From: Alistipes sp.
GTDB taxonomy: Bacteria > Bacteroidota > Bacteroidia > Bacteroidales > Rikenellaceae
Reading direction: 5' to 3'
Assembly (NCBI GenBank): GCA_029060215.1
Contig: JAIDUK010000003.1
Location: forward strand, 1 to 64,000
DNA length: 64,000 nt
In this document: positions 948 to 22,340 of the stretch, piece after piece
Numbering within the stretch: position 1 is the stretch's first letter
Layout of the letters: every line of letters begins with the position of its first letter
Position numbers and translations under genes: made by a program
Notes under the pieces: model-generated
What the model was told of the DNA's origin: nothing
The model's input: only the letters and a program-made list of their open reading frames with translations
Database searches by the model: none

Positions 948-3086
948 ATGGACGAAGTTCGCATCAAAGACCTCGCGAGCGCTTCTGGACAGTTGGCGGA
1001 GTTCGACGCATTCGAGTTCATCGTCGACGTCCCGACAGCCGCCGCATCGATGAAGGTTTCCGGCAAGGAGATCAAGGGTGTGATGGCTCCGAAGAGGCAT
1101 ACGCACGCCGTCTCCGACATCACGGGGCTGTCCGGCGAGTTCGATAAGAAGTTGGACAAGAAAGGCGGTACGATCTCGGGCGACTTGTCGGTTATGGGCG
1201 ATACGTACCTGCGGCGGCTTCATTTGGAGGAGTTCTTGGAGGTTCCCGAATACCGCTACAACCGCATCGAAACGGTCGTCGGCGATCGGTGGTCCGCTCC
1301 GGGCGGCGGCATCGTCGAGTTCGTCTCGCCGGAGAACCGGACGTTGGTCGTCAAGTTGGAGGCGGGCGAAATAAGCACCTTGCGCGAGAACGACCTCTGT
1401 ATGGGCATCTTCCTGAACTCGGCAATGGACGCACCGAGCGGCAATACCGTCGATTCGGACGACTCGTTCGGCAACCGCGCCTATGCCGGCTTCACGACCT
1501 GCTACTTCCGCCTTACCGAGTGCCTCGACTGCAACACTTACGCCGAATGGCGGTACGAATTGCGCGAGGGGTACCCCTATCACCCGCAGGCGGCGATGCA
1601 GTTCGTGGCATTCGGCAATACGACCGACAAGGAGCGCCGAACCTCCCGCTACGAAACCCGCACCTACCTGCGGTTTCTCACAGGTATGGACGACTGGACG
1701 ATCCGCACGGAGAATATCGCAGCGCAGTTCGGCGACCTTTCGAATCTCAAGTCGCACGGTCTGGATATGACCGGTTATTCGGCCTACCTGAAAAATATCT
1801 ACCTCACGGGCTTCCTCTCGGACAAGTCGGGCGACTCGTGGTTCGACTCCGCGACGGGCGATATGCAGCTCTTCAACCGTACGACGGGTTACGGCGTAAA
1901 TTTCCGCAACGGCATCCTGCGCTTCGGTCGCATCGACCCCGCGAAGCCCGATACAGGAACGGATTTCGACGAGTTGATGCAGACGATCTCCTCGACATTG
2001 GAAACGCTCGGCCGTATCAACTCGGACAAGTATGTTTCACCCGTGGAGAAGTCGTTTTTGAAAGAGCGCTTGCAGGATATCCGAACCGAATACGAACAAC
2101 TCCGCGCCAATGCCCTGCGGCTGCTCTCCGTGTTTCGTTATCGCAGCGCGAACGGCAAAGTACTTATGGTACACGGCAAGCGGCGCGTCGTCCGGTTGCT
2201 CGCCGACGAATGGACGCCCTACGAAGATGCCTATCAGCGGGCCGTCGCCGCCATCGGGAAATACACGCAGCCGGAGCCGGAGTTCATTCCGATCGGGGAT
2301 GATTTCGCCGACATCGAGGCTTACTACACGGCTCGCCGAACGATCGGGGCGCTCTTGGACGAGGCGGCGAAAAGCGACGACAGCGATCTGGAGTATCTAC
2401 GCGAAAACTTTCAGGATATCTCGACGGAGATCGATGCCGGAAGCGGCGTGGTGCTGTCCGGGTTCGTCGGCGTAAAGGACGATACGGACAAGAAGGTCGT
2501 GGCGGGTATGGCAGGCTGCGCATTGAAAGGCGCTCCGACGTCGAAGCACGGCAAGTTGATGTTCTTCGCCGGAGCGGACGGTATCGAGAACGCTGCGACG
2601 GCTGCCACACGCATCTACGAAGACGGACACGTCGAAATGGCGAGCGGCATCTTCAGCGGATATTCGAAGGTGCAGTTCAAATACTTCACGGACGAAGGCA
2701 CGGACTACAACGCCTCGACCCGCAAGTATACATTGAACCGCAACTTCAACCTGATCGCCAACGGCGCAGATTTCGGCAGTTACATCGTCTGGTTGAACCT
2801 GCCCGTATCGTCCGAGTATATCGGCAGCGTGGTAAACCTCTACGACTGTCCGATCCGCACCCGTTCATCGCCCAGTCTGGTACTTGCAGCGGACGACACG
2901 CAGTCGGGCATCGTGACGACACTGAAGAAAGATGCCTACGGAATGGGCTATCTACCGGTTCCTCGCATCGAGACCTACGGAGGACTGTTGCAACTGTTGG
3001 CTGTGCCGTCGCCCTATTCCTCCGCCAAATGCATGTGGCACGTAACTTATCAGATGATGTCCGAATTCAAGATTTACGAAGAATAA
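948..3086 (+). CDS. phage tail fibre/structural protein
   Basis: ORF 732..3086; likely start ATG 948 (MDEVRIKDLASASGQLAEFDAF...); HTHAVSDITGL...LDKKGGTISGDLSV motif typical of tail fibres. Confidence 0.7.
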   Translation: MDEVRIKDLASASGQLAEFDAFEFIVDVPTAAASMKVSGKEIKGVMAPKRHTHAVSDITGLSGEFDKKLDKKGGTISGDLSVMGDTYLRRLHLEEFLEVPEYRYNRIETVVGDRWSAPGGGIVEFVSPENRTLVVKLEAGEISTLRENDLCMGIFLNSAMDAPSGNTVDSDDSFGNRAYAGFTTCYFRLTECLDCNTYAEWRYELREGYPYHPQAAMQFVAFGNTTDKERRTSRYETRTYLRFLTGMDDWTIRTENIAAQFGDLSNLKSHGLDMTGYSAYLKNIYLTGFLSDKSGDSWFDSATGDMQLFNRTTGYGVNFRNGILRFGRIDPAKPDTGTDFDELMQTISSTLETLGRINSDKYVSPVEKSFLKERLQDIRTEYEQLRANALRLLSVFRYRSANGKVLMVHGKRRVVRLLADEWTPYEDAYQRAVAAIGKYTQPEPEFIPIGDDFADIEAYYTARRTIGALLDEAAKSDDSDLEYLRENFQDISTEIDAGSGVVLSGFVGVKDDTDKKVVAGMAGCALKGAPTSKHGKLMFFAGADGIENAATAATRIYEDGHVEMASGIFSGYSKVQFKYFTDEGTDYNASTRKYTLNRNFNLIANGADFGSYIVWLNLPVSSEYIGSVVNLYDCPIRTRSSPSLVLAADDTQSGIVTTLKKDAYGMGYLPVPRIETYGGLLQLLAVPSPYSSAKCMWHVTYQMMSEFKIYEE

Positions 3087-3105
3087 TCTACTAAAAACAA
3101 CGAAC

Positions 3106-3348
3106 ATGGAGAATAATTCATTCGAAATCGTAAAGGATATAGATATCGAAGCGATAGCGGATCCCGTATCGGGAGCGATCACGCTCTCTCAGCTCCCGAA
3201 GGTAACGACTTTGGCAGCCACCGACCTTATCGAAATCGATCGCAACGGTACGGGGGCTGCCGTAACTTATGCGACGTTGGTCGATGCGATGACCGCCTCG
3301 CTCGGGCTGACGGGCATCGAGGAGGCACTGAACCATATTATCGGATAG
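3106..3348 (+). CDS. small phage structural/hypothetical protein
   Basis: 80-aa ORF between two fibre genes in the same orientation. Confidence 0.5.
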   Translation: MENNSFEIVKDIDIEAIADPVSGAITLSQLPKVTTLAATDLIEIDRNGTGAAVTYATLVDAMTASLGLTGIEEALNHIIG

Positions 3349-3351
3349 CAT

Positions 3352-4053
3352 ATGGCAGACTTTACTTCACTCGTTTTGCGGCTCGATGCGCTGCGGCAGC
3401 ACCTTGCCGGGACGCTCCGCGACAAAGGCGTGGCGACAACCGACGAAGAGACGTTGGCATCGCTCGTCGATAAAGTCGCATTGATGGACAGCACCAGCGG
3501 AATGAATCAGATCCGCAACGGCTACCAGCTCTTTCGGGGCAATACGACGATGTCGGTATTTCCGGAGTTCGATACGGCGTCGTTCGATTCGATGTATCAG
3601 ATGTGCTACGGCTGTACGGCACTGGAGCGCGTGCCGACGCTCGACACCTCGAACGTCGCGAATATGATGTATGCTTTCTACGGTTGTACGAACTTGCAGG
3701 AGATCGGCGGATTGGACACCTCGCGCATTACCTCCGCCTCGGAGATGTTCCACGGCTGCAAGAACCTGCGCAAAATCGGCGGAAGACTCGACTTCAGCAA
3801 GGTAACATCGAAGATCGACACGACATTCGTCTCCTGCTCCGCACTCGAAACGGTCATCATCGACGGCCCCGTCAGCGTGGATATCGCGATGAACGGCTGC
3901 CCGAAACTCACGGTCGAGAGTTTGGTATTCCTGCTGAATGCTCTATCCGACACAGGTAATGGCAAGACCTGCAATATCGGAGCGAAGAACCTTGCGAAAC
4001 TGAATGCTATCCAAAAAGCGATCGCGACAGACAAGGGGTGGACACTGATTTAA
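3352..4053 (+). CDS. BspA-like (DUF285) leucine-rich repeat protein, probable tail tip/adhesin
   Basis: Repeats such as FDSMYQMCYGCTALERVPTLDTSNVANMMYAFYGCTNLQEIGGLDTSRITSASEMFHGC. Confidence 0.75.
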   Translation: MADFTSLVLRLDALRQHLAGTLRDKGVATTDEETLASLVDKVALMDSTSGMNQIRNGYQLFRGNTTMSVFPEFDTASFDSMYQMCYGCTALERVPTLDTSNVANMMYAFYGCTNLQEIGGLDTSRITSASEMFHGCKNLRKIGGRLDFSKVTSKIDTTFVSCSALETVIIDGPVSVDIAMNGCPKLTVESLVFLLNALSDTGNGKTCNIGAKNLAKLNAIQKAIATDKGWTLI

Positions 4054-6664: not shown

Positions 6665-6862
6665 TTATTCCGCTTTCTCGATAATTACGAACCGATCGAC
6701 TTCGGGAATGACTGCCAAGCCTCCCCATGTGCCGTGCAGTTGTCCGAGCGAGTCGATGAACTCGATCGTACCCTCCTTGCCGTCGTAACGGCTATCCTCG
6801 TCGCGAAGATGGATAATGCGAATCTTGTCGCCTACCGTTGCATTTGCATTCATCGTTTTCAT
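6665..6862 (-). CDS. DUF4314-like protein
   Basis: VGDKIRIIHLRDEDSRYDGKEGTIEFIDSLGQLHGTWGGLAVIPEVDRF. Confidence 0.7.
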   Translation of the reverse strand: MKTMNANATVGDKIRIIHLRDEDSRYDGKEGTIEFIDSLGQLHGTWGGLAVIPEVDRFVIIEKAE

Positions 6863-6937
6863 CTCTTTATGTGTTTCCCGGTTTCGGGTCTTAACCCCGC
6901 CGAGGAAGATTTCTCGGCGGGGTCGTCTCTCGTTTCG

Positions 6938-7156
6938 TCAATCAGCCGTCTCTTCCGATTCCCAACGCTCAGCGAGCAATGTAAGGATCCGGTTGTTGAT
7001 GTCGTGATTCGCATTCGATAATTCGCCGTAGCGGTTGCCGGCACGTCTGTTTTCGTCGGCAAGGCGTTGCATCTCCTTGCGGTTCTTCTCGAATTCGACC
7101 TCCAACCGGTCGAGTTCGGCGTCGATTTCCGTTCTTTTTCGATTCGCTGTATTCAT
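6938..7156 (-). CDS. hypothetical coiled-coil protein
   Basis: MNTANRKRTEIDAELDRLEVEFEKNRKEM...; start placed downstream of promoter repeat (ORF-track start lies inside the promoter). Confidence 0.55.
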   Translation of the reverse strand: MNTANRKRTEIDAELDRLEVEFEKNRKEMQRLADENRRAGNRYGELSNANHDINNRILTLLAERWESEETAD

Positions 7157-7181
7157 AATCGAGTCGTTTAATAGATTGTAG

Positions 7182-7260
7182 TTCAATTGTTTATTGCACT
7201 GCAAACATAACATCATTATTCGGAACGCGCAAGTTTATCGGCAACTTAATTCAAAGAATA
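7182..7260 (-). promoter_or_regulatory. promoter-repeat copy 2
   Basis: TTGC-N19-TATGTTTG on minus strand. Confidence 0.7.
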
Positions 7261-7349
7261 TCAACTATTTATCAGGCATTTTCCATATGGTAAATATACA
7301 TTCTGTCGAAGATTCGTTGCAGAAACAATGTCCCGCCTTCGAACGGAAA

Positions 7350-7379
7350 CCGGAGCCGTACACGATGTACGGCTCCGGT
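7350..7379 (-). terminator. hairpin CGGAGCCGTACA-CGA-TGTACGGCTCCG
   Basis: Perfect inverted repeat, paralogous to 6078-6105. Confidence 0.5.
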
Positions 7380-7466
7380 CGCAATAAACAACTGAATGGA
7401 CGAAACGAGGGAAAGCCTCCCGTCGGAGGCTCGGAGCATTCGCTCCTTACGATCGGAAGTCGGTTA

Positions 7467-7799
7467 CTAATCGACCGTCCGGTATTCCCATTTGCCGTCC
7501 CGATAGAGATATTTGTAACATATATCCTCCTCGATTTCTCGTTCGTAGGCGGCAACCGATTTATAAATCCGAGGCTCGGTATCGTACCGTTCATTCGATT
7601 TCTCGAACCGGCACTCTTCGAGACGTGCCTCCACATTGATTATGTTGCCTCGTTCGACCAGTGCCATTGCCGATTCCAATGTATTGTAGTGCGCTGACAA
7701 CGTTTCGCCCAACGTATCGGGATGTCCGTCCCGCCATATATAGACGCTTTTGATTTTTCCGTCGGGAAGTCTTACTCCGATTCTTGCTCTTGTACTCAT
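7467..7799 (-). CDS. hypothetical protein
   Basis: MSTRARIGVRLPDGKIKSVYIWRDGHPDTLGETL..., 110 aa, downstream of promoter repeat. Confidence 0.6.
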   Translation of the reverse strand: MSTRARIGVRLPDGKIKSVYIWRDGHPDTLGETLSAHYNTLESAMALVERGNIINVEARLEECRFEKSNERYDTEPRIYKSVAAYEREIEEDICYKYLYRDGKWEYRTVD

Positions 7800-7811
7800 A
7801 ATACACTCTAT

Positions 7812-7900
7812 ATTAGTTGTTTATTGCACTGCAAAGATGACATCATAATTCGGGACACGCAAGTCTTTCTGAAATTATTATTGTATTTATCTTCAATATC
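7812..7900 (-). promoter_or_regulatory. promoter-repeat copy 3
   Basis: TTGC-N19-CATCTTTG on minus strand. Confidence 0.65.
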
Positions 7901-7907
7901 TTACACG

Positions 7908-8126
7908 TTATCGAAGTGCGTCGCACACCTGTCGCAATGCCTCGCGTTCATCGCCATCGAGCGAGCAGACGAAATCGTCATTGCTGTAATAGTTGCCGTC
8001 CTCGTCCTGCTCGTCGAAGCAACGCTCATCGGCGGTCGTAAGTACGGCAGCAAGGGCGCGATATTGAGTTGCGGTAATACCTGCCATCGTGTAAGTTCCG
8101 GTTTTCGTTCGGCGGAGTTTCATCAA
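7908..8126 (-). CDS. hypothetical protein
   Basis: 72-aa ORF. Confidence 0.5.
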   Translation of the reverse strand: MMKLRRTKTGTYTMAGITATQYRALAAVLTTADERCFDEQDEDGNYYSNDDFVCSLDGDEREALRQVCDALR

Positions 8127-13640: not shown

Positions 13641-14837
13641 TTACGCCGATTTATGCACCAACTTGTGGACGGGATGCGTACCGGCATCCAACAGGATGCC
13701 GTCCACACGGGCGAAGCCGAACAGCCCGATCGAAAGGTACTCGGCGAGCAGTTCGTTCAGACGGATCACGCGGAACGACTTGACCATACGGATCTTGAAC
13801 TTCGAGAAGTCGCCGAACAGCACCGAGGTCTTGCCCGCTGCGGCATCGTCGAGGTCGTCGTTCAGGATATAAGGTTTACCGAACAACGTCGGCGGCGTGC
13901 CGTCCTTCGCCCCCTCCTGCCAGATGTAGCGTCCCGTCGTATCCTTGATCTTGACGAGCGAGTAGAGCGTATTGCGGTTGAACATGAACCGCCCGTGCCG
14001 GGCATAGGAAGAATCCACGCCTTTCACGAGGTCGATGATACTATCCAACGTAATGGCAGCAGCGGCCGGTTGAGCATCCGAGGCCGTAGCCCACTCGACG
14101 ATGCCCTTGGGTTTGCCCTTGCCGTCGCCGCGCGTGAGGTCGTAGTTGATACCGCGTCCGAACGACTCGGCCAACAGACCCGAGAGCAGCGATTCGAGGT
14201 CGAATGCCGAGTCCTGCAACAGCTCCAACGACACGGGGACGATGGGCGTGCGGTAGGTGTAGGCTTTGAGCGTTTCGGAGCCGAACGATGGTGCGGATTT
14301 GGCGGACTGCTGGTACTCGGCCACGACCGTAGCTTTCGCATCGGTATTGTTCGCCGTAGGCATAATCAGATCGCCGCCCTTGCTCGTGGTGAGGATGGAA
14401 CCCGCCTCGAACATCCCGCCGTAGGCTTTCAGCGCGACCTCGATGCTGTCGGCGAGCGACGAAGGAACGACCACGCCGCCCGACAAACCCGTGATGCCGG
14501 CGCGCTGCTCGAAGAGTGTCCGGTGCTCGGGCGAAATATCCGCAGCGCCGCGCAGCAGGTAGTCGCGAAAAGCGGTGCGGTACTCCTCGGCACAGCGCTC
14601 GTCGAGCTGCTCGCCGGAAGTCTGTCGAGCATACTGCTGCTCGGCCTGCCGGCGTTCGATATCGACGTAGCGCTCCTCTGCTTCGACGGCACGGTCGGCC
14701 TGCTCGTACTCCGCAAGCAGCGTATTCCACCGCTCCTGCTCCTCGGAGGTCATCTCGCGCCCGTCGGTCGCGGTACGCAACTCGTCGATCTTTGCGAACA
14801 CGGCAGCGCGGCTCTCTTTAAGGGTTTTCAGTTTGCT
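13641..14837 (-). CDS. HK97-family major capsid protein
   Basis: N-terminal coiled-coil delta domain and HK97 fold motifs (GGVVVPSSLADSIEVALKAYGGMFEAG); start MSKLKTLKESRAAV. Confidence 0.9.
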   Translation of the reverse strand, partial: SKLKTLKESRAAVFAKIDELRTATDGREMTSEEQERWNTLLAEYEQADRAVEAEERYVDIERRQAEQQYARQTSGEQLDERCAEEYRTAFRDYLLRGAADISPEHRTLFEQRAGITGLSGGVVVPSSLADSIEVALKAYGGMFEAGSILTTSKGGDLIMPTANNTDAKATVVAEYQQSAKSAPSFGSETLKAYTYRTPIVPVSLELLQDSAFDLESLLSGLLAESFGRGINYDLTRGDGKGKPKGIVEWATASDAQPAAAAITLDSIIDLVKGVDSSYARHGRFMFNRNTLYSLVKIKDTTGRYIWQEGAKDGTPPTLFGKPYILNDDLDDAAAGKTSVLFGDFSKFKIRMVKSFRVIRLNELLAEYLSIGLFGFARVDGILLDAGTHPVHKLVHKSA

Positions 14838-14936
14838 CATAAATCTCGTTATTGATTCGTTCGGGAGCAAACTTAATCCACACATCAGCCTCGAAAGGGA
14901 AACTTTGTCGCAGTTCGGAGAATTTCTCTAAAAAAT

Positions 14937-15863
14937 ATGACTAGCTGCAATTATTTTAACTATTTTTGTAAAAATGTTTGTTTTATGTCGAATATTCACC
15001 TCATAAATTTCGATACGACAGACCGAAATAAATGGTTAAGCACAATTGCCGAAGCATCGGAAACGCATAGAGATTGCAAGTCGAATGACCATATTATTCT
15101 CGGATTCAACGGCATAAATGGCACAGAGAAAATTACGCCTATACATATCGTTTCACTTGCCTGCCTTATCGAATCTCTCGCAAGAAAACATGTTATTGTT
15201 CATATTCAAAATAGAGAAACGAATGCTGTAAGCAATTTTCTTTGGGAAAATTTAAGATTCAGAGAATATTGGGCTGGCGGACAAAATTTTGTTCCAGCAC
15301 AAGATACCAATGTTTTCAACCTTTGGCGAATCATCGATAATGAAAAAGAAATACACAGTAGAAGAATACACGACTATTTAAAACAAACATTTTTCCAACA
15401 TAAGGATTTAAGCGCTGTTCAGAATAGTTTGGATGAAGTTTATTACAATATTTTTGATCACGCAAATGCAGATGGGAACGCTTTTTCTTTTATTTTTTAT
15501 GACAAAGAAAATGAAAAATTGCATGTAGCAGTTTGTGATTTCGGTATCGGAATTGCTAAATCCGTTAGAAATGCATTGCCGGAAATCCCTGACGATATGG
15601 CAGCGTTGCTTAAAGCAATGGAATATAAATTCACCACCGGATCACAAACTCATAACATGGGTATGGGACTCGGCAATATCAAGGATACTTGTACTGAAGA
15701 CGATATTTTAGGTATTATCAGCAATAAAGGATGTCTATTTGCCAAGAGAGAAAATATGCGTGCTTACGAAAATACTTTCTATTTCCCCGGCACGTTAATA
15801 TATTACGAATTATCACTCTCTCATTTTGAAGAAGAGGAAATTATTGATAACTTTGCACTATAA
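14937..15863 (+). CDS. GHKL (HATPase_c) ATP-binding protein
   Basis: N-box DEVYYNIFDHANADGN, G1 VCDFGIGIAKSV, G2 MGMGLGNIKD; AT-rich. Confidence 0.75.
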   Translation: MTSCNYFNYFCKNVCFMSNIHLINFDTTDRNKWLSTIAEASETHRDCKSNDHIILGFNGINGTEKITPIHIVSLACLIESLARKHVIVHIQNRETNAVSNFLWENLRFREYWAGGQNFVPAQDTNVFNLWRIIDNEKEIHSRRIHDYLKQTFFQHKDLSAVQNSLDEVYYNIFDHANADGNAFSFIFYDKENEKLHVAVCDFGIGIAKSVRNALPEIPDDMAALLKAMEYKFTTGSQTHNMGMGLGNIKDTCTEDDILGIISNKGCLFAKRENMRAYENTFYFPGTLIYYELSLSHFEEEEIIDNFAL

Positions 15864-15877
15864 TTAAGGAGGTAAAT

Positions 15878-16159
15878 ATGTGTTCGATTAATTTACAAGC
15901 AATCATGGCAAACAAGACCTATCCGGAGGCCGGAGAAATTTTGTTTGATATACTTGCTGAAAAGATTAAAAGTGAGACCAAAATTGTTCTGGACTTAGAC
16001 GGAGTAGTTTCTCTACCTTCCATGTTTTTGAATATGTCCATAGGTAAATTCATTGAAACCTATGGTGTAGACTTATTACGTCAAAAAATTTCATTCGCTA
16101 AAATAAGCGCTACACAAGCAGAACGAATTAAAGACTACATTAATAGAGTTTCAAAATAA
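15878..16159 (+). CDS. STAS-like domain (DUF4325) protein
   Basis: KIVLDLDGVVSLPSMFLNMSIGKFIETYGVDLLRQKISF. Confidence 0.75.
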   Translation: MCSINLQAIMANKTYPEAGEILFDILAEKIKSETKIVLDLDGVVSLPSMFLNMSIGKFIETYGVDLLRQKISFAKISATQAERIKDYINRVSK

Positions 16160-16197
16160 AAAAGCCTCATTGAAATGAGGTTTTTTTATTTTCGAAG
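16160..16197 (+). terminator. intrinsic terminator
   Basis: AAAAAAGCCTCATT-GAA-ATGAGGTTTTTTTATTTT. Confidence 0.85.
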
Positions 16198-16310
16198 TCG
16201 TAATTGCAAACTCTCGACCAGCCGCTTTCTCGCCCGGCTTTCGGCGGCGGCACGGTCATTTCGTTCCGGTTGCGGTGCGTGTTCGCGCAGATATCCAGTC
16301 GGCTGGTCGA
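16196..16310 (-). pseudogene. truncated duplicate of prohead protease C-terminal coding sequence
   Basis: YLREHAPQPERNDRAAAESRARKRLVESLQLRLRK vs protease EYLREHAPQPERNDRVVAECWARKRLVESLRIKQ. Confidence 0.85.
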
Positions 16311-16473
16311 GAGAAAATGGGCATACGGCCGATTTTACGGATGCTCCAATTATCCGAAATGCAAGTTCACGCATCGTTGCTGAAGTGTTATTTTTTCATT
16401 TCTGAACACGATTTGCCGATAATAATCAGGAATAATACAGCATTCTGAAATAAGAAAGTATTATCTTTGCAGT

Positions 16474-16800
16474 ATGAATATTCGGGAGCATATCGCAGAT
16501 AAATTGATTGTCTCAGGCGGGTTCTGGTCGTATGACAAGACATCCGTTCGGGAAAATATGTCCGACGATCAACTGATAGGAGCCGCTCTCGAAAAACTCG
16601 ATTTAGACGATATCGATTTGTTGTTCCGGCTTTTTCCCGCAAAGAAAATCAAAGATGTTTGGCGCCGGACGATGGTCGTGCAGGGCGATTACTATTATTC
16701 GCTCAATCGTTTTTTCGCTTGGTATTATTTCGGCATTCGTTATCCGGATCGCTATCTGAAAGCGATGATGACGCGCCACCTTTCAAAATTAACCGCATGA
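16474..16800 (+). CDS. DUF6922-like protein, partner of AbiEii-type nucleotidyltransferase toxin
   Basis: ATGA overlap with downstream AbiEii-like N-terminus; own promoter TATCTTTGC at 16463. Confidence 0.55.
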   Translation: MNIREHIADKLIVSGGFWSYDKTSVRENMSDDQLIGAALEKLDLDDIDLLFRLFPAKKIKDVWRRTMVVQGDYYYSLNRFFAWYYFGIRYPDRYLKAMMTRHLSKLTA

Positions 16801-16955
16801 GAGGTATAGCCGAACATACCGAAGCAATTATCGAACGAGTATCCCGACTCGAGTGCATCGAAGAATGGACGCTTGTCGGCGGTACGGCGTTGGCTATCCA
16901 ACTCGACCACCGTAAGAGCGAAGATCTCGATTTCATGCGCTGGCAAACACAATAA
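16797..16955 (+). pseudogene. AbiEii/AbiGii-type nucleotidyltransferase toxin, truncated
   Basis: LVGGTALAIQLDHRKSEDLDFMRWQTQ* ends after 52 aa. Confidence 0.75.
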
Positions 16956-17006
16956 TCTCAGTGGTCGAAATCGAAGAATACATCAAAGGGTTATTGAAAC
17001 AAAATT

Positions 17007-17042
17007 AAATGGATACAATGAAAATTGCATCCATTTTTTGTT
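17007..17042 (+). terminator. intrinsic terminator
   Basis: AAATGGATACAAT-GAAA-ATTGCATCCATTTTTTG. Confidence 0.8.
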
Positions 17043-17685
17043 ACTGCTTGATCCGTAAACTCTCAACCAGTCGCTTTCTTGCCCAGCATTCGGCGACAAC
17101 TCGGTCATTTCGTTCCGGCTGCGGTGCGTGTTCGCGCAGATACTCGGCTTTTCGCTCTTCGAGATGCCGCACCGAGGCTTCGGTTTCGGGATAGGCAGGA
17201 AATACCACGAGCGACACATCCACCACACGAGAGAACCGGAGTATCGTCCGCTCGTCCATCGCAAGACCGTTCTGTTCATCGGCATACTGCCACTCGTCTT
17301 GCTCGACGCCGAAGCGGAACGAACATTTCGAGACGTCGCCCCGGCGTACCAGTTCCAGCATATCGTTTCCCAAAGTCGTATTCGGAGCCTCGAATGCGAA
17401 GCGCAGACCTACGTCGTCTACCTCCAATCGCAGCGTACCGCTCGTCGTGCGGGCGAGAATCGAATCGGTGTTATGGTTGAAACACATGATGACATCCGAC
17501 AGATCGCATCCATCGAACGCTCCCCGAGCGATCTTCTCCCGGAACCACCCCATAATAGGGTCGCTCCAACTCTCGAACTTCGCGGCATAGCCGACGATCG
17601 TCCGGCTGACGGTCCCCTCCTCGCGGCTCTCGATATGCAGATCGCCGACAAGGCTCCGGCTCTCTATTTCATTGTTCAGTTCCAT
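17041..17685 (-). CDS. HK97-family prohead protease
   Basis: VSRTIVGYAAKFESWSDPI..., FNHNTDSILARTTSGTLRLEVDDVGLRF; adjacent to portal. Confidence 0.9.
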   Translation of the reverse strand: MELNNEIESRSLVGDLHIESREEGTVSRTIVGYAAKFESWSDPIMGWFREKIARGAFDGCDLSDVIMCFNHNTDSILARTTSGTLRLEVDDVGLRFAFEAPNTTLGNDMLELVRRGDVSKCSFRFGVEQDEWQYADEQNGLAMDERTILRFSRVVDVSLVVFPAYPETEASVRHLEERKAEYLREHAPQPERNDRVVAECWARKRLVESLRIKQ

Positions 17686-18889: not shown

Positions 18890-18952
18890 TATCGCTTGCC
18901 TTTATTCGAGACAAACATAGCGAAGCGGTTCGAGATATGGATAAGACAATGT

Positions 18953-19372
18953 CTATCCCGAAATTATTTCATTTGTCAATCTTTCTAAATTTTCTTCTCT
19001 GACACGGGGCTTCAACTGACATTGCCAGACCGTGAGTACGCGATATCCGAGTTCTTCCAGTTCACGTTTTTTTCGTTCGTCCCGTTCTAAATTATCCGCG
19101 ATCTTTTTCTCCCAATATTCGAGATTGGTCGATGGCAGATGAGAATACTTACATTCTTTATGTCCGTGCCAAAAACAGCCGTTCACGAATACTGCAGTCT
19201 TATATTTCGGGAAAACGATATCCGGCGTACCCGGCAATCGCTTTACATTCTTCCGATACCTCAAACCGCGCGCGAAAAGGTATTTCCGGACTACTATTTC
19301 GGGTTTCGTCTCTTTTCCCGTTACATGGGACATTATCTCCGAACGTTTCTCTTTGCTGACCGTATCCGCCAT
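18953..19372 (-). CDS. vsr: very short patch repair (Vsr) endonuclease
   Basis: RSEIMSHVTGKETKPEIVVRKYLFARGLRYRKNVKRLPGTPDIVFPKYKTAVFVNGCFWHGH. Confidence 0.95.
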   Translation of the reverse strand: MADTVSKEKRSEIMSHVTGKETKPEIVVRKYLFARGLRYRKNVKRLPGTPDIVFPKYKTAVFVNGCFWHGHKECKYSHLPSTNLEYWEKKIADNLERDERKKRELEELGYRVLTVWQCQLKPRVREENLERLTNEIISG

Positions 19373-19375
19373 AGT

Positions 19376-21247
19376 TTATTTTATGATGATCCGTTCTTTA
19401 AGGCGGTCCATATTTTCCTTACGAGTTTTCTTCGTATAGCCGAGTTTCTCGCAAACAGCTTCTATTTTCTGACAAAAGACATCTGCATTCAGTCCGGTCA
19501 TACATAATTCGTTATTTTCGTTTCGTTCCGTGCAATGCCATAATGCTTCATCGTTCAAAGGATGTTGCGGTTTGAACGGAGGAATATTGAATATCCTATT
19601 ATCTACTTGAGTAATCCAAGAAGCGCCGATTTCGGTCATCGCTCCCCATGCGCCAGGCGTATTGTCGCTCGTAACGAATATTACGAAGATTTTTTGATTC
19701 GAGTAGCTCTCGACGAAAAAATCTCTTAAATAATTGTAAATCGAAGTCGTTCCTTCCGGAATACGACTCGCTTCATCATCGCAACTCGTATACAATATAT
19801 CTTCCGGAGGAACTCCATTGAATATCAAAAACGAATATATCAGATCCGCCAGACCTTTATCTTTCGAAGCATGACTGATAAGGATTTTCTTCTTCTGGGA
19901 ATCTACGACAGTTTTCAAACCCAATGCTTGTGCATTGTCGTTGATCGCTTCGGAGATGACTCGTTCGATAGTTTCTTTGGAAGAATCCGGTGCTAATTTT
20001 CCGATTCCAGCAGCGGCATTTTCGCTCACTCTCGTTTTGAATGTATCTACCGCAGCTCGAAATCTCGCTTCATTGTCTTTTTGTTTTTCCAACTTTTGTT
20101 GCTTCTTTTCTTTATTCGCTTCATCGGTATATGCTATCCTTTTTCGAATAATATTCGGGAGAAGCCGGTCTCTGACATAATTCGTTACGGCAATATAGCG
20201 AGGATCATCGGATTTATAACCCTGTCTATTGCTCAATGCCATATCCGGAAGTTCGGATAATTCGAATAAATCTACATATAATTGACCGACGATATAGACC
20301 TCATTCAGTTTGTTCTGTCCGACGATCGGCAATATATTGAACTCGCCTAATTTTTTATTGGCATATAATGAAATAAAATTATCGGGGAAATCCGTAAGAG
20401 CGGCTTTTCGACCTCTGGTAGATTCATATGCTCCGATCCACCCTTTCATTTCCAAAATATATTCCCGTTCTTCTCCGGAATTGTTTTTCAAAGTCAACGA
20501 TTCCGTATACGGTTCTCTATTTTCGACTAAATCGGAACGTTTATAAGGATATTTATCTGGAACAAACTTGCTTAACCGGGCAAATTCATCCCCCAATGAG
20601 ATGAAAGCGCATAACTCTTTCGCTACATTTTCATCGAAAGTATCGATTGTAATATTTTTGTCTCCTCCGATGATATGGATCTTAAAATCATCATTGACTA
20701 ATGGAAATATTTTAAGGAGATTGCGTTTTACCGAATCGGATGTTTTATTCAGTCTATATCGAGGGTTCCGCATTACAATCGCTGTTCCGTTGTTTTCGAT
20801 ATGAGCGAATACTATCTCCTCGTCCGGTATGGCTTTCAATTTATTTCCATCAAAGGGTATTCGTGCGAGAACGAATCCCGATTTTTCGCCGTTGCTGATG
20901 GTCATGACATCGACCCATTCGGAAACGGATAATGCCGCTAATTTCCCGACTCCTTTCCGACCCATTTTACGACGATTACCGGAGCGCGTTTTCGCTTCAT
21001 CTTCATTGGTTCGCGAAATACCGGCGACATGCAGGAATTTTCCGACTTCGCCTTTCTCATACGACATGCCATGTCCATCGTCTTCGATGCGGATATCGTT
21101 CTCGCCAGAAATTATATATACGTTATGGGCATCCGCATCATAAGCATTGGCGATGAGTTCAGCCAATACATAGTAAATGTTCGTATAAAGGTTCGGCCCC
21201 AGCAGCTCCAATATTCTCGGGTCAACATCCAATTCGTATTCCTTCAT
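19376..21247 (-). CDS. GHKL ATPase fused to C-terminal TIR-like domain
   Basis: ELIANAYDADA, IEDDGHGM, GRKGVGKLAA; C-term KKKILISHASKDKGLADLIYSFL...IFVTSDNTPGAWGAMTEIGASWI. Confidence 0.85.
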   Translation of the reverse strand: MKEYELDVDPRILELLGPNLYTNIYYVLAELIANAYDADAHNVYIISGENDIRIEDDGHGMSYEKGEVGKFLHVAGISRTNEDEAKTRSGNRRKMGRKGVGKLAALSVSEWVDVMTISNGEKSGFVLARIPFDGNKLKAIPDEEIVFAHIENNGTAIVMRNPRYRLNKTSDSVKRNLLKIFPLVNDDFKIHIIGGDKNITIDTFDENVAKELCAFISLGDEFARLSKFVPDKYPYKRSDLVENREPYTESLTLKNNSGEEREYILEMKGWIGAYESTRGRKAALTDFPDNFISLYANKKLGEFNILPIVGQNKLNEVYIVGQLYVDLFELSELPDMALSNRQGYKSDDPRYIAVTNYVRDRLLPNIIRKRIAYTDEANKEKKQQKLEKQKDNEARFRAAVDTFKTRVSENAAAGIGKLAPDSSKETIERVISEAINDNAQALGLKTVVDSQKKKILISHASKDKGLADLIYSFLIFNGVPPEDILYTSCDDEASRIPEGTTSIYNYLRDFFVESYSNQKIFVIFVTSDNTPGAWGAMTEIGASWITQVDNRIFNIPPFKPQHPLNDEALWHCTERNENNELCMTGLNADVFCQKIEAVCEKLGYTKKTRKENMDRLKERIIIK

Positions 21248-21275
21248 TTTCGAAAAGATCGGGATAAATGTATAA

Positions 21276-22340
21276 TTATTTTTCGGTTAGTTCGGATAAA
21301 TGGGCTCGTATGCTTTCCGCTATTATTTCCCCCAGCTTCGGAGGTACGGCGTTGCCGATATATCTCGATGCTTTGGTGATCGCGACATACTGCTCATCGG
21401 CGAAAAACTTATACGTTTTCGGAAATGTTTGTATAAGGGCGGCCTCTCTGACCGATATCGCACGGTCTTGGGTCGGGTGTCCGAATCTTCCGTTTCCCAA
21501 TCCGGTACATTGGGTAGTCATCGTAGGAGCCGGTTTTTCCCAAACCATTCTGCCGTAAACGCTTCCGAACGAACTGCCGCCATCCGTTTTATGGCATCGT
21601 AGTTTCAACTTTTCCGGCCAATCTTTCCATCCTCCGCCGTACGGAGTATTTCGAATACGATCGAGATTCTTCGGCGACAATGCTTTGGCTCTGTGCAAGG
21701 GATCGTTCGGATCGACCTCTCCGGCTTTCAGTTCCGGCAGGTCGCCTATCGCATCTTTAACGGTTTTATATTCGTTCGGCTTATGCGTAGGCGGAATCAA
21801 TTCGATTTTACCCAATCGCGACGCCAACAGCACCAATCGTTTCCGTGTTTGAGGAATTCCGTAATCCGGACAATATACAGGCTTCACCCAAACTCGATAG
21901 TCGTTTTCTTTCAAAAGATTCACGAAATCGGATAACACCGGTTTATCTTTGAATGCCAGAATTTGAGAGACATTCTCCATCGTGACTATATCGGGCAACG
22001 TATCTTTTACCAACCGTCCGAATTCATATAGCAAATCGTATTTATTCGGATCCTTTTTTTTGTTTTTGAACGCATACGAAGAAAACGGCTGGCAAGGAGC
22101 GCATCCTGCTAAAACCCTAATAGCATCTTTACCGTACATTGCACCGATTTCATTGGCGGATACCGTTTTGATATCTTTATAAATGAACTTCGCTTCGTTA
22201 TTCGTTTCATAGGCATATCGGCATGTGGCATCGAGATCGTATCCTGCAAGTATATCGAAACCCTTGCTTTTCATACCGAAACTCAAGCCGCCGATGCCGC
22301 AAAACAAGTCTATGACTTCTATTTTTCGAGATGCAATCAT
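21276..22340 (-). CDS. dcm: DNA (cytosine-5) methyltransferase
   Basis: DLFCGIGGLSFGM, GCAPCQPFSSY, TMENVSQIL, PQTRKRLVLLAS; ATGA overlap with upstream ORF. Confidence 0.95.
   Translation of the reverse strand: MIASRKIEVIDLFCGIGGLSFGMKSKGFDILAGYDLDATCRYAYETNNEAKFIYKDIKTVSANEIGAMYGKDAIRVLAGCAPCQPFSSYAFKNKKKDPNKYDLLYEFGRLVKDTLPDIVTMENVSQILAFKDKPVLSDFVNLLKENDYRVWVKPVYCPDYGIPQTRKRLVLLASRLGKIELIPPTHKPNEYKTVKDAIGDLPELKAGEVDPNDPLHRAKALSPKNLDRIRNTPYGGGWKDWPEKLKLRCHKTDGGSSFGSVYGRMVWEKPAPTMTTQCTGLGNGRFGHPTQDRAISVREAALIQTFPKTYKFFADEQYVAITKASRYIGNAVPPKLGEIIAESIRAHLSELTEK

Follow-up and report, generated by a model that had tools for sequence, protein, structure and literature searches.

Why does a prophage of Alistipes carry a second copy of the end of its prohead protease gene, stranded between two accessory cassettes on the opposite strand, and what does this arrangement say about how cargo enters an operon of essential head genes? 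The question concerns the window, i.e., the whole 64,000-nucleotide stretch of DNA that was analysed, which was compared with 180 genomes of the genus, 268 of the family, and 394 of the order. The locus contains the following features:

13641-14885, minus strand: major capsid protein (MCP; Pfam Phage_capsid, 8.7e-56)
14868-14912, minus strand: MCP leader, TGCGACAAAGTTTC-N23-TAAGTTTG, the right border of all cargo in the clade, conserved in seven phages
14937-15863, plus strand: GHKL (HATPase_c_2) protein of cassette 2, likely start ATG at 14985 (phrog_3364, 6.7e-30)
15878-16159, plus strand: STAS-like DUF4325 partner in cassette 2 (Pfam DUF4325, 2.2e-11)
16152-16195, no strand assigned: strong predicted hairpin terminator of cassette 2, directly adjacent to the orphan tail (-18.7 kcal/mol, z -7.4)
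16208-16293, minus strand: orphan protease tail (YLREHAPQPERNDRAAAESRARKRLVESL...), which begins at the counterpart of codon 182 (88% identity)
16211-16313, no strand assigned: 14-bp perfect inverted repeat bounding the tail copy (CTCTCGACCAGCCG, 16211-16224; CGGCTGGTCGAGAG, 16300-16313)
16294-16461, no strand assigned: spacer upstream of the 108-aa ORF
16474-16800, plus strand: 108-aa ORF of cassette 1 (relatives 68-71% identical in G013, G002, and G134)
16797-17008, plus strand: AbiEii pseudogene, a 52-aa N-terminal ORF and a frameshifted C-terminal remnant (VVEIEEYIKGLLKQN, then a stop; Pfam AbiEii, 1.3e-6)
17007-17036, no strand assigned: predicted hairpin terminator of cassette 1, between the AbiEii remnant and the live tail (-10.6 kcal/mol, z -4.3)
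17041-17685, minus strand: S78 prohead protease, live tail at 17057-17142 (Pfam Peptidase_S78, 1.2e-41)
18953-22340, minus strand: second cargo slot, from orf111 to the portal, with a C5 methyltransferase, a GHKL ATPase with an spbK-like C-terminal part, and Vsr

The anomaly lies in the protease 3' end, of which 86 nt (17057-17142), the 28 S78 prohead protease codons that precede LRIKQ (codons 182 to about 210), are repeated at 16208-16293 in the same orientation with 88% identity and a longest exact run of 23 nt. The repeat has an E-value of 1e-25, exists in two copies and no more in the 2.07 Mb host assembly, and is absent at the DNA level from all others of the 180 genus genomes, searched with the tail region, which bears out the near-identical second protease tail of the original prediction. 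A trivial cause, namely the resemblance of any two low-complexity, KR-rich tails, was checked and rejected, as other family members encode clearly different tails (LREQATESVSRSKMESLSRKRLADLLKLKQ, LRNNTPQPDSLPSPDPTSVSRTRLCECLRLKR) and no further copy occurs genus-wide. The two tails show six synonymous and four non-synonymous differences, with a dS of 0.36 and a dN of 0.066 (dN/dS about 0.18). The proteases of the window phage (G000) and of G173, which pair in the portal tree as G147 does with G160, have a dS of 0.54 overall and of 0.28 in codons 120-182, while in a neutral simulation of 28 codons so few amino-acid changes had P = 0.059, a weak test on a short stretch. The comparison of tail with protease divergence that had been proposed thus places the tails at the sister-phage level: their divergence resembles that between sister-phage proteases and is unlike that of a fresh duplication. 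Since the dS values are similar and amino-acid changes are few, the origin of the orphan from a sister phage is preferred over a local duplicate that drifted. One residue is S in the orphan, as in the outgroups, and C in the live tail. Moreover, the 14-bp inverted repeat, overlooked by the earlier reading, lies around the upstream end of the orphan copy; the window contains three inverted repeats of this kind with arms within 120 nt, and this one may be a scar of recombination by template switching.

Cassette 2 (GHKL-STAS) lies on the MCP side and cassette 1 on the live-protease side, and each is preceded by its own TAnnTTTG element (14961-14968 before the GHKL gene, 16462-16469 before the 108-aa ORF) and followed by a predicted terminator. 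The anticipated plus-strand cassette with a terminator adjoining each tail is thus recovered, and both hairpins are predicted to be able to act on either strand. The GHKL protein has a Pfam HATPase_c_2 match (9.6e-5) below the cut-off, and GHKL-STAS relatives in G171 and G158 adjoin phage-like genes. Cassette 1 had been described as DUF6922-AbiEii: its AbiEii is recognisable but broken, and its 108-aa ORF has no Pfam match, DUF6922 included; in G134, DUF6922 is found in the gene upstream of the homologue of this ORF. Compared with intact 215-residue copies (L068/L069; G013, G002), the window AbiEii is missing most of its central part and is out of frame, so that cassette 1 is a remnant, and with this internal deletion and frameshift it lacks the intact AbiEii nucleotidyltransferase of the AbiE toxin-antitoxin system (type IV). 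Upstream of the 108-aa ORF, the spacer matched nothing in the genus search beyond one trivial 32-nt stretch. Elsewhere, a leader-less relative, G128, carries an HTH gene and an intact AbiEii between a Dam-like methyltransferase and tail genes (L031, reverse-complement 6797-8000), so this toxin family is found there at a different slot.

Between the cargo and the MCP sits a leader of the pattern TGCGACAAWGTTTC-N23-TAnGTTTG, which in its exact form occurs seven times in six of the 180 genomes, always at MCP or portal leaders of phages of the clade; the reversed control pattern has zero occurrences in the same 180 genomes. The second half of the leader matches TAnnTTTG, the Bacteroidetes -7 consensus (PMC7366714), and the leader is probably the MCP promoter. 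A related leader before the portal (18890-18950, minus strand) also ends in TAnGTTTG, the portal leader of G160 fits the full pattern, and both leaders may be promoters that would keep the next essential gene expressed whatever the cargo upstream. The second slot is likewise variable: it holds an RmrA-like HTH/M78 pair in G173 and G147, a 590-aa ORF in G195, and an antisense DprA-like ORF in G160.

A survey of protease and MCP genes in the genus and the family yielded 17 phages with a readable junction. In ten of these, protease and MCP almost touch or overlap, with no leader and no cargo, and the remaining seven share the leader before the MCP and have cargo between protease and MCP in six cases, counts that are not independent trials because the leader-less and leader-bearing groups are related by descent. 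The protease/MCP junction is thus a recurrent cargo site in the leader-bearing phages, as had been proposed. Specifically, the junction of G147 is empty, G173, G160, and G006 carry an MjaI-type restriction-modification cassette (in G006 the methyltransferase end alone is visible), G134 carries HTH-DUF6922 with a gene related to the 108-aa ORF, in antisense orientation to the protease, and G195 a DUF2971 gene (PDC-S31/DUF2971), also antisense to the protease. Cargo is therefore present in the window and absent at the same junction in G147, with other cargo in G173, G160, G134, and G195, as is expected of morons, and one fixed locus holds varying defence-related cargo, as in prophage defence hotspots. 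The defence-like genes include MjaI restriction-modification, PDC-S31/DUF2971, the AbiEii remnant, and HTH-DUF6922 and, at the second slot, methyltransferase/Vsr and RmrA-like genes, which suggests a defence function for the cargo. No near DNA relative was found among named phages.

Some traits of these prophages lie beside the cargo question. A tail-less satellite, considered when no tape-measure gene was seen after the head genes, was dropped once tail genes were found further along. The tail genes of the window (948-4047, plus strand) and those of G173 are encoded on the other strand from the head genes, whereas in G147 both sets are co-directional, a difference that corresponds to an inversion of the head and tail modules. 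In G147, the opposite strand carries more cargo-like genes, DUF262-like and McrBC-like by eye, both inside the tail gene region and beyond it (L094, 5019-6724 and 9875-13976), and in G212 a transposase-bearing region, IS630-like by eye, stands in place of the MCP N-terminus (L074, 4690-7100).

Close pairs of phages allow the joints to be read. Portal and protease of G147 and G160 share 94.7% identity over 1798 bp, up to a breakpoint near protease codons 186-189, and the two phages match again, at 98.7%, from precisely the first base of the MCP leader (TGCGACAATG). The sequence in between is entirely different: 20-odd codons peculiar to G147 with a short spacer, and in G160 another tail with the restriction cassette. 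Similarly, G000 and G173 share 91.6% identity as far as window base 17142 (codon 181/182), the boundary at which the orphan tail also starts (codon 182), and their homology is back at about 14915 with 87.8% identity. As homology in both pairs stops at codons ~182-189 and resumes at the MCP leader, the protease tail changes with the cargo. In G173, a frameshifted SRNRLCDFLKVANRH remnant stands beside the restriction cassette on a G000-like protease, and it resembles the in-frame ...RLRFCDFLRIVNRG end of G160, beside the same cassette type. The restriction cassettes of G160 and G173 have about 73% identity, a divergence no lower than that of the backbone, so that this cassette is perhaps ancestral and G147 and G000 are the recipients.

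The other occupied relatives have a tail that was exchanged for another or joined to the cargo, without a second copy remaining. A stacked arrangement with a stranded tail occurs in a single one of the 180 genomes, and replacement is the usual state. The original prediction held that incoming cassettes bring their own protease tail and leave the older one behind: tails are indeed exchanged with cargo, but a second tail is left in this case alone. The alignment of the junction across relatives that it called for returned empty and occupied variants, but two tail copies in the window only, and its unit of cassette, terminator, and tail does not repeat outside this single case, as other occupied relatives have no second tail. 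A single tail of matching sequence beside either the GHKL-STAS or the 108-aa/AbiEii cassette was found in no relative surveyed, so the two parents have not been seen.

The findings, namely a cargo slot, a tail that changes together with its cargo, a shared boundary at codon 182, and the degree of tail divergence, are best explained, with good though not overwhelming probability, by two separate units of tail and cargo that were joined in tandem by a second, partly illegitimate recombination. The junction is a tolerated cargo slot that follows the conserved protease domain and precedes a leader by which the MCP probably retains its own promoter, and phages of the clade would trade cargo there by ordinary recombination, with the left joint at codons ~182-189 and the right joint in the leader/MCP. 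Because homology lies in the protease domain and in the leader/MCP, tail and cargo would travel as one unit. The window tandem would consist of the live tail with the decayed AbiEii/108-aa cassette, followed by the orphan tail with the STAS-GHKL cassette, and the route that we infer is most likely one recombination between two phages with different units. One joint would be homologous, in the protease domain, and the other illegitimate, upstream of the 108-aa ORF near the 14-bp inverted repeat, where it would have stranded the tail of the second unit, so that the sequence upstream of the 108-aa ORF runs straight into codon 182 of another tail. The decay of cassette 1 speaks mildly against a late arrival of that unit. 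For the part of the prophage examined, an ORF list read by eye contained no recognisable gene for homologous recombination.

The same orientation of the two tails, which are mutually the closest among all tails found, would also result if a cassette insertion had duplicated the tail in place, through a long target or a tandem duplication, and the copy had then drifted. This local origin is unlikely, as the 12% divergence has a synonymous excess though the orphan frame has no use, derived residues occur in the live tail too and not in the orphan alone, the tails end differently (LRIKQ-stop and LQLRLRK-stop), and other cassettes occupy the slot without duplication. It is very improbable that the assembler joined two co-existing phage variants: the assembly is a draft of 46 contigs and the 23-nt shared run lies at the edge of the copy, but a k-mer chimera at this 23-mer presupposes a real tail beside the 108-aa ORF, itself the thing needing explanation, the join enters unrelated sequence with the 14-bp inverted repeat, and AbiEii decay and tail divergence are foreign to assembly errors.

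Least likely of all is a dedicated docking process, in which a recombinase would recognise the protease tail or its hairpin and insert cassettes repeatedly in an integron-like manner. Left joints that cluster at codons 182-189, the inverted repeat around the copy, and the strong fold of the tail sequence (z -3.0) speak for such a process, yet the tails of occupied phages differ widely, the cassette ends have no repeated site, no tandem arrays occur elsewhere, and ordinary homology on both sides accounts for the joints. An integron-like cassette array was likewise rejected, with no repeated end sites in relatives and an inverted repeat only around the window's copy.

A further and rather speculative possibility is that the protease tail forms an integral piece of an interchangeable "tail + cargo" cartridge, by which phages of the clade regularly trade defence cargo via the end of an essential head gene, with a dedicated late promoter on the other border, and which can stack in tandem. 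Phage cargo islands are usually described as gene lists per locus, whereas here the joints are readable and give a concrete account of how a phage could take defence genes into its late operon and survive: the cargo and the end of an essential head gene are swapped together, and the essential gene that follows is shielded by a probable promoter. Moreover, two slots are marked for seeking new defence cargo in phages of a gut-bacterial genus.

Phage morons are accessory genes with their own promoter and terminator, inserted between late genes, and the window cassettes are putative extra transcription units, opposite to the late operon, with a promoter-like element and a predicted terminator, and absent from close relatives. 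Unlike in morons, a change of cargo is coupled here to a change in the 3' end of the neighbouring structural gene, and a stranded gene end separates two stacked units. Lambdoid phages show modular mosaicism, with exchange at short conserved boundary sequences, which is paralleled by joints at a conserved protein domain end and at a conserved leader, although here the module comprises protease tail and cargo, and the resulting tandem is unusual. P2 phages and P4 satellites have defence hotspots, which share with this locus the single fixed place and the interchangeable, mostly defence-like genes; here, in contrast, the place is inside the head operon, upstream of the MCP and the portal, with probable late promoters as borders. 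The Tab defence moron of Pseudomonas phage JBD26 (PMC10884400), located between the terminase genes and accompanied by an anti-Tab gene, is similarly an opposite-strand defence gene that has a promoter of its own and conserved neighbours among the head/packaging genes of the late operon; it differs in position, host, and genes. The locus is a variation on this known mosaicism of morons and defence hotspots.
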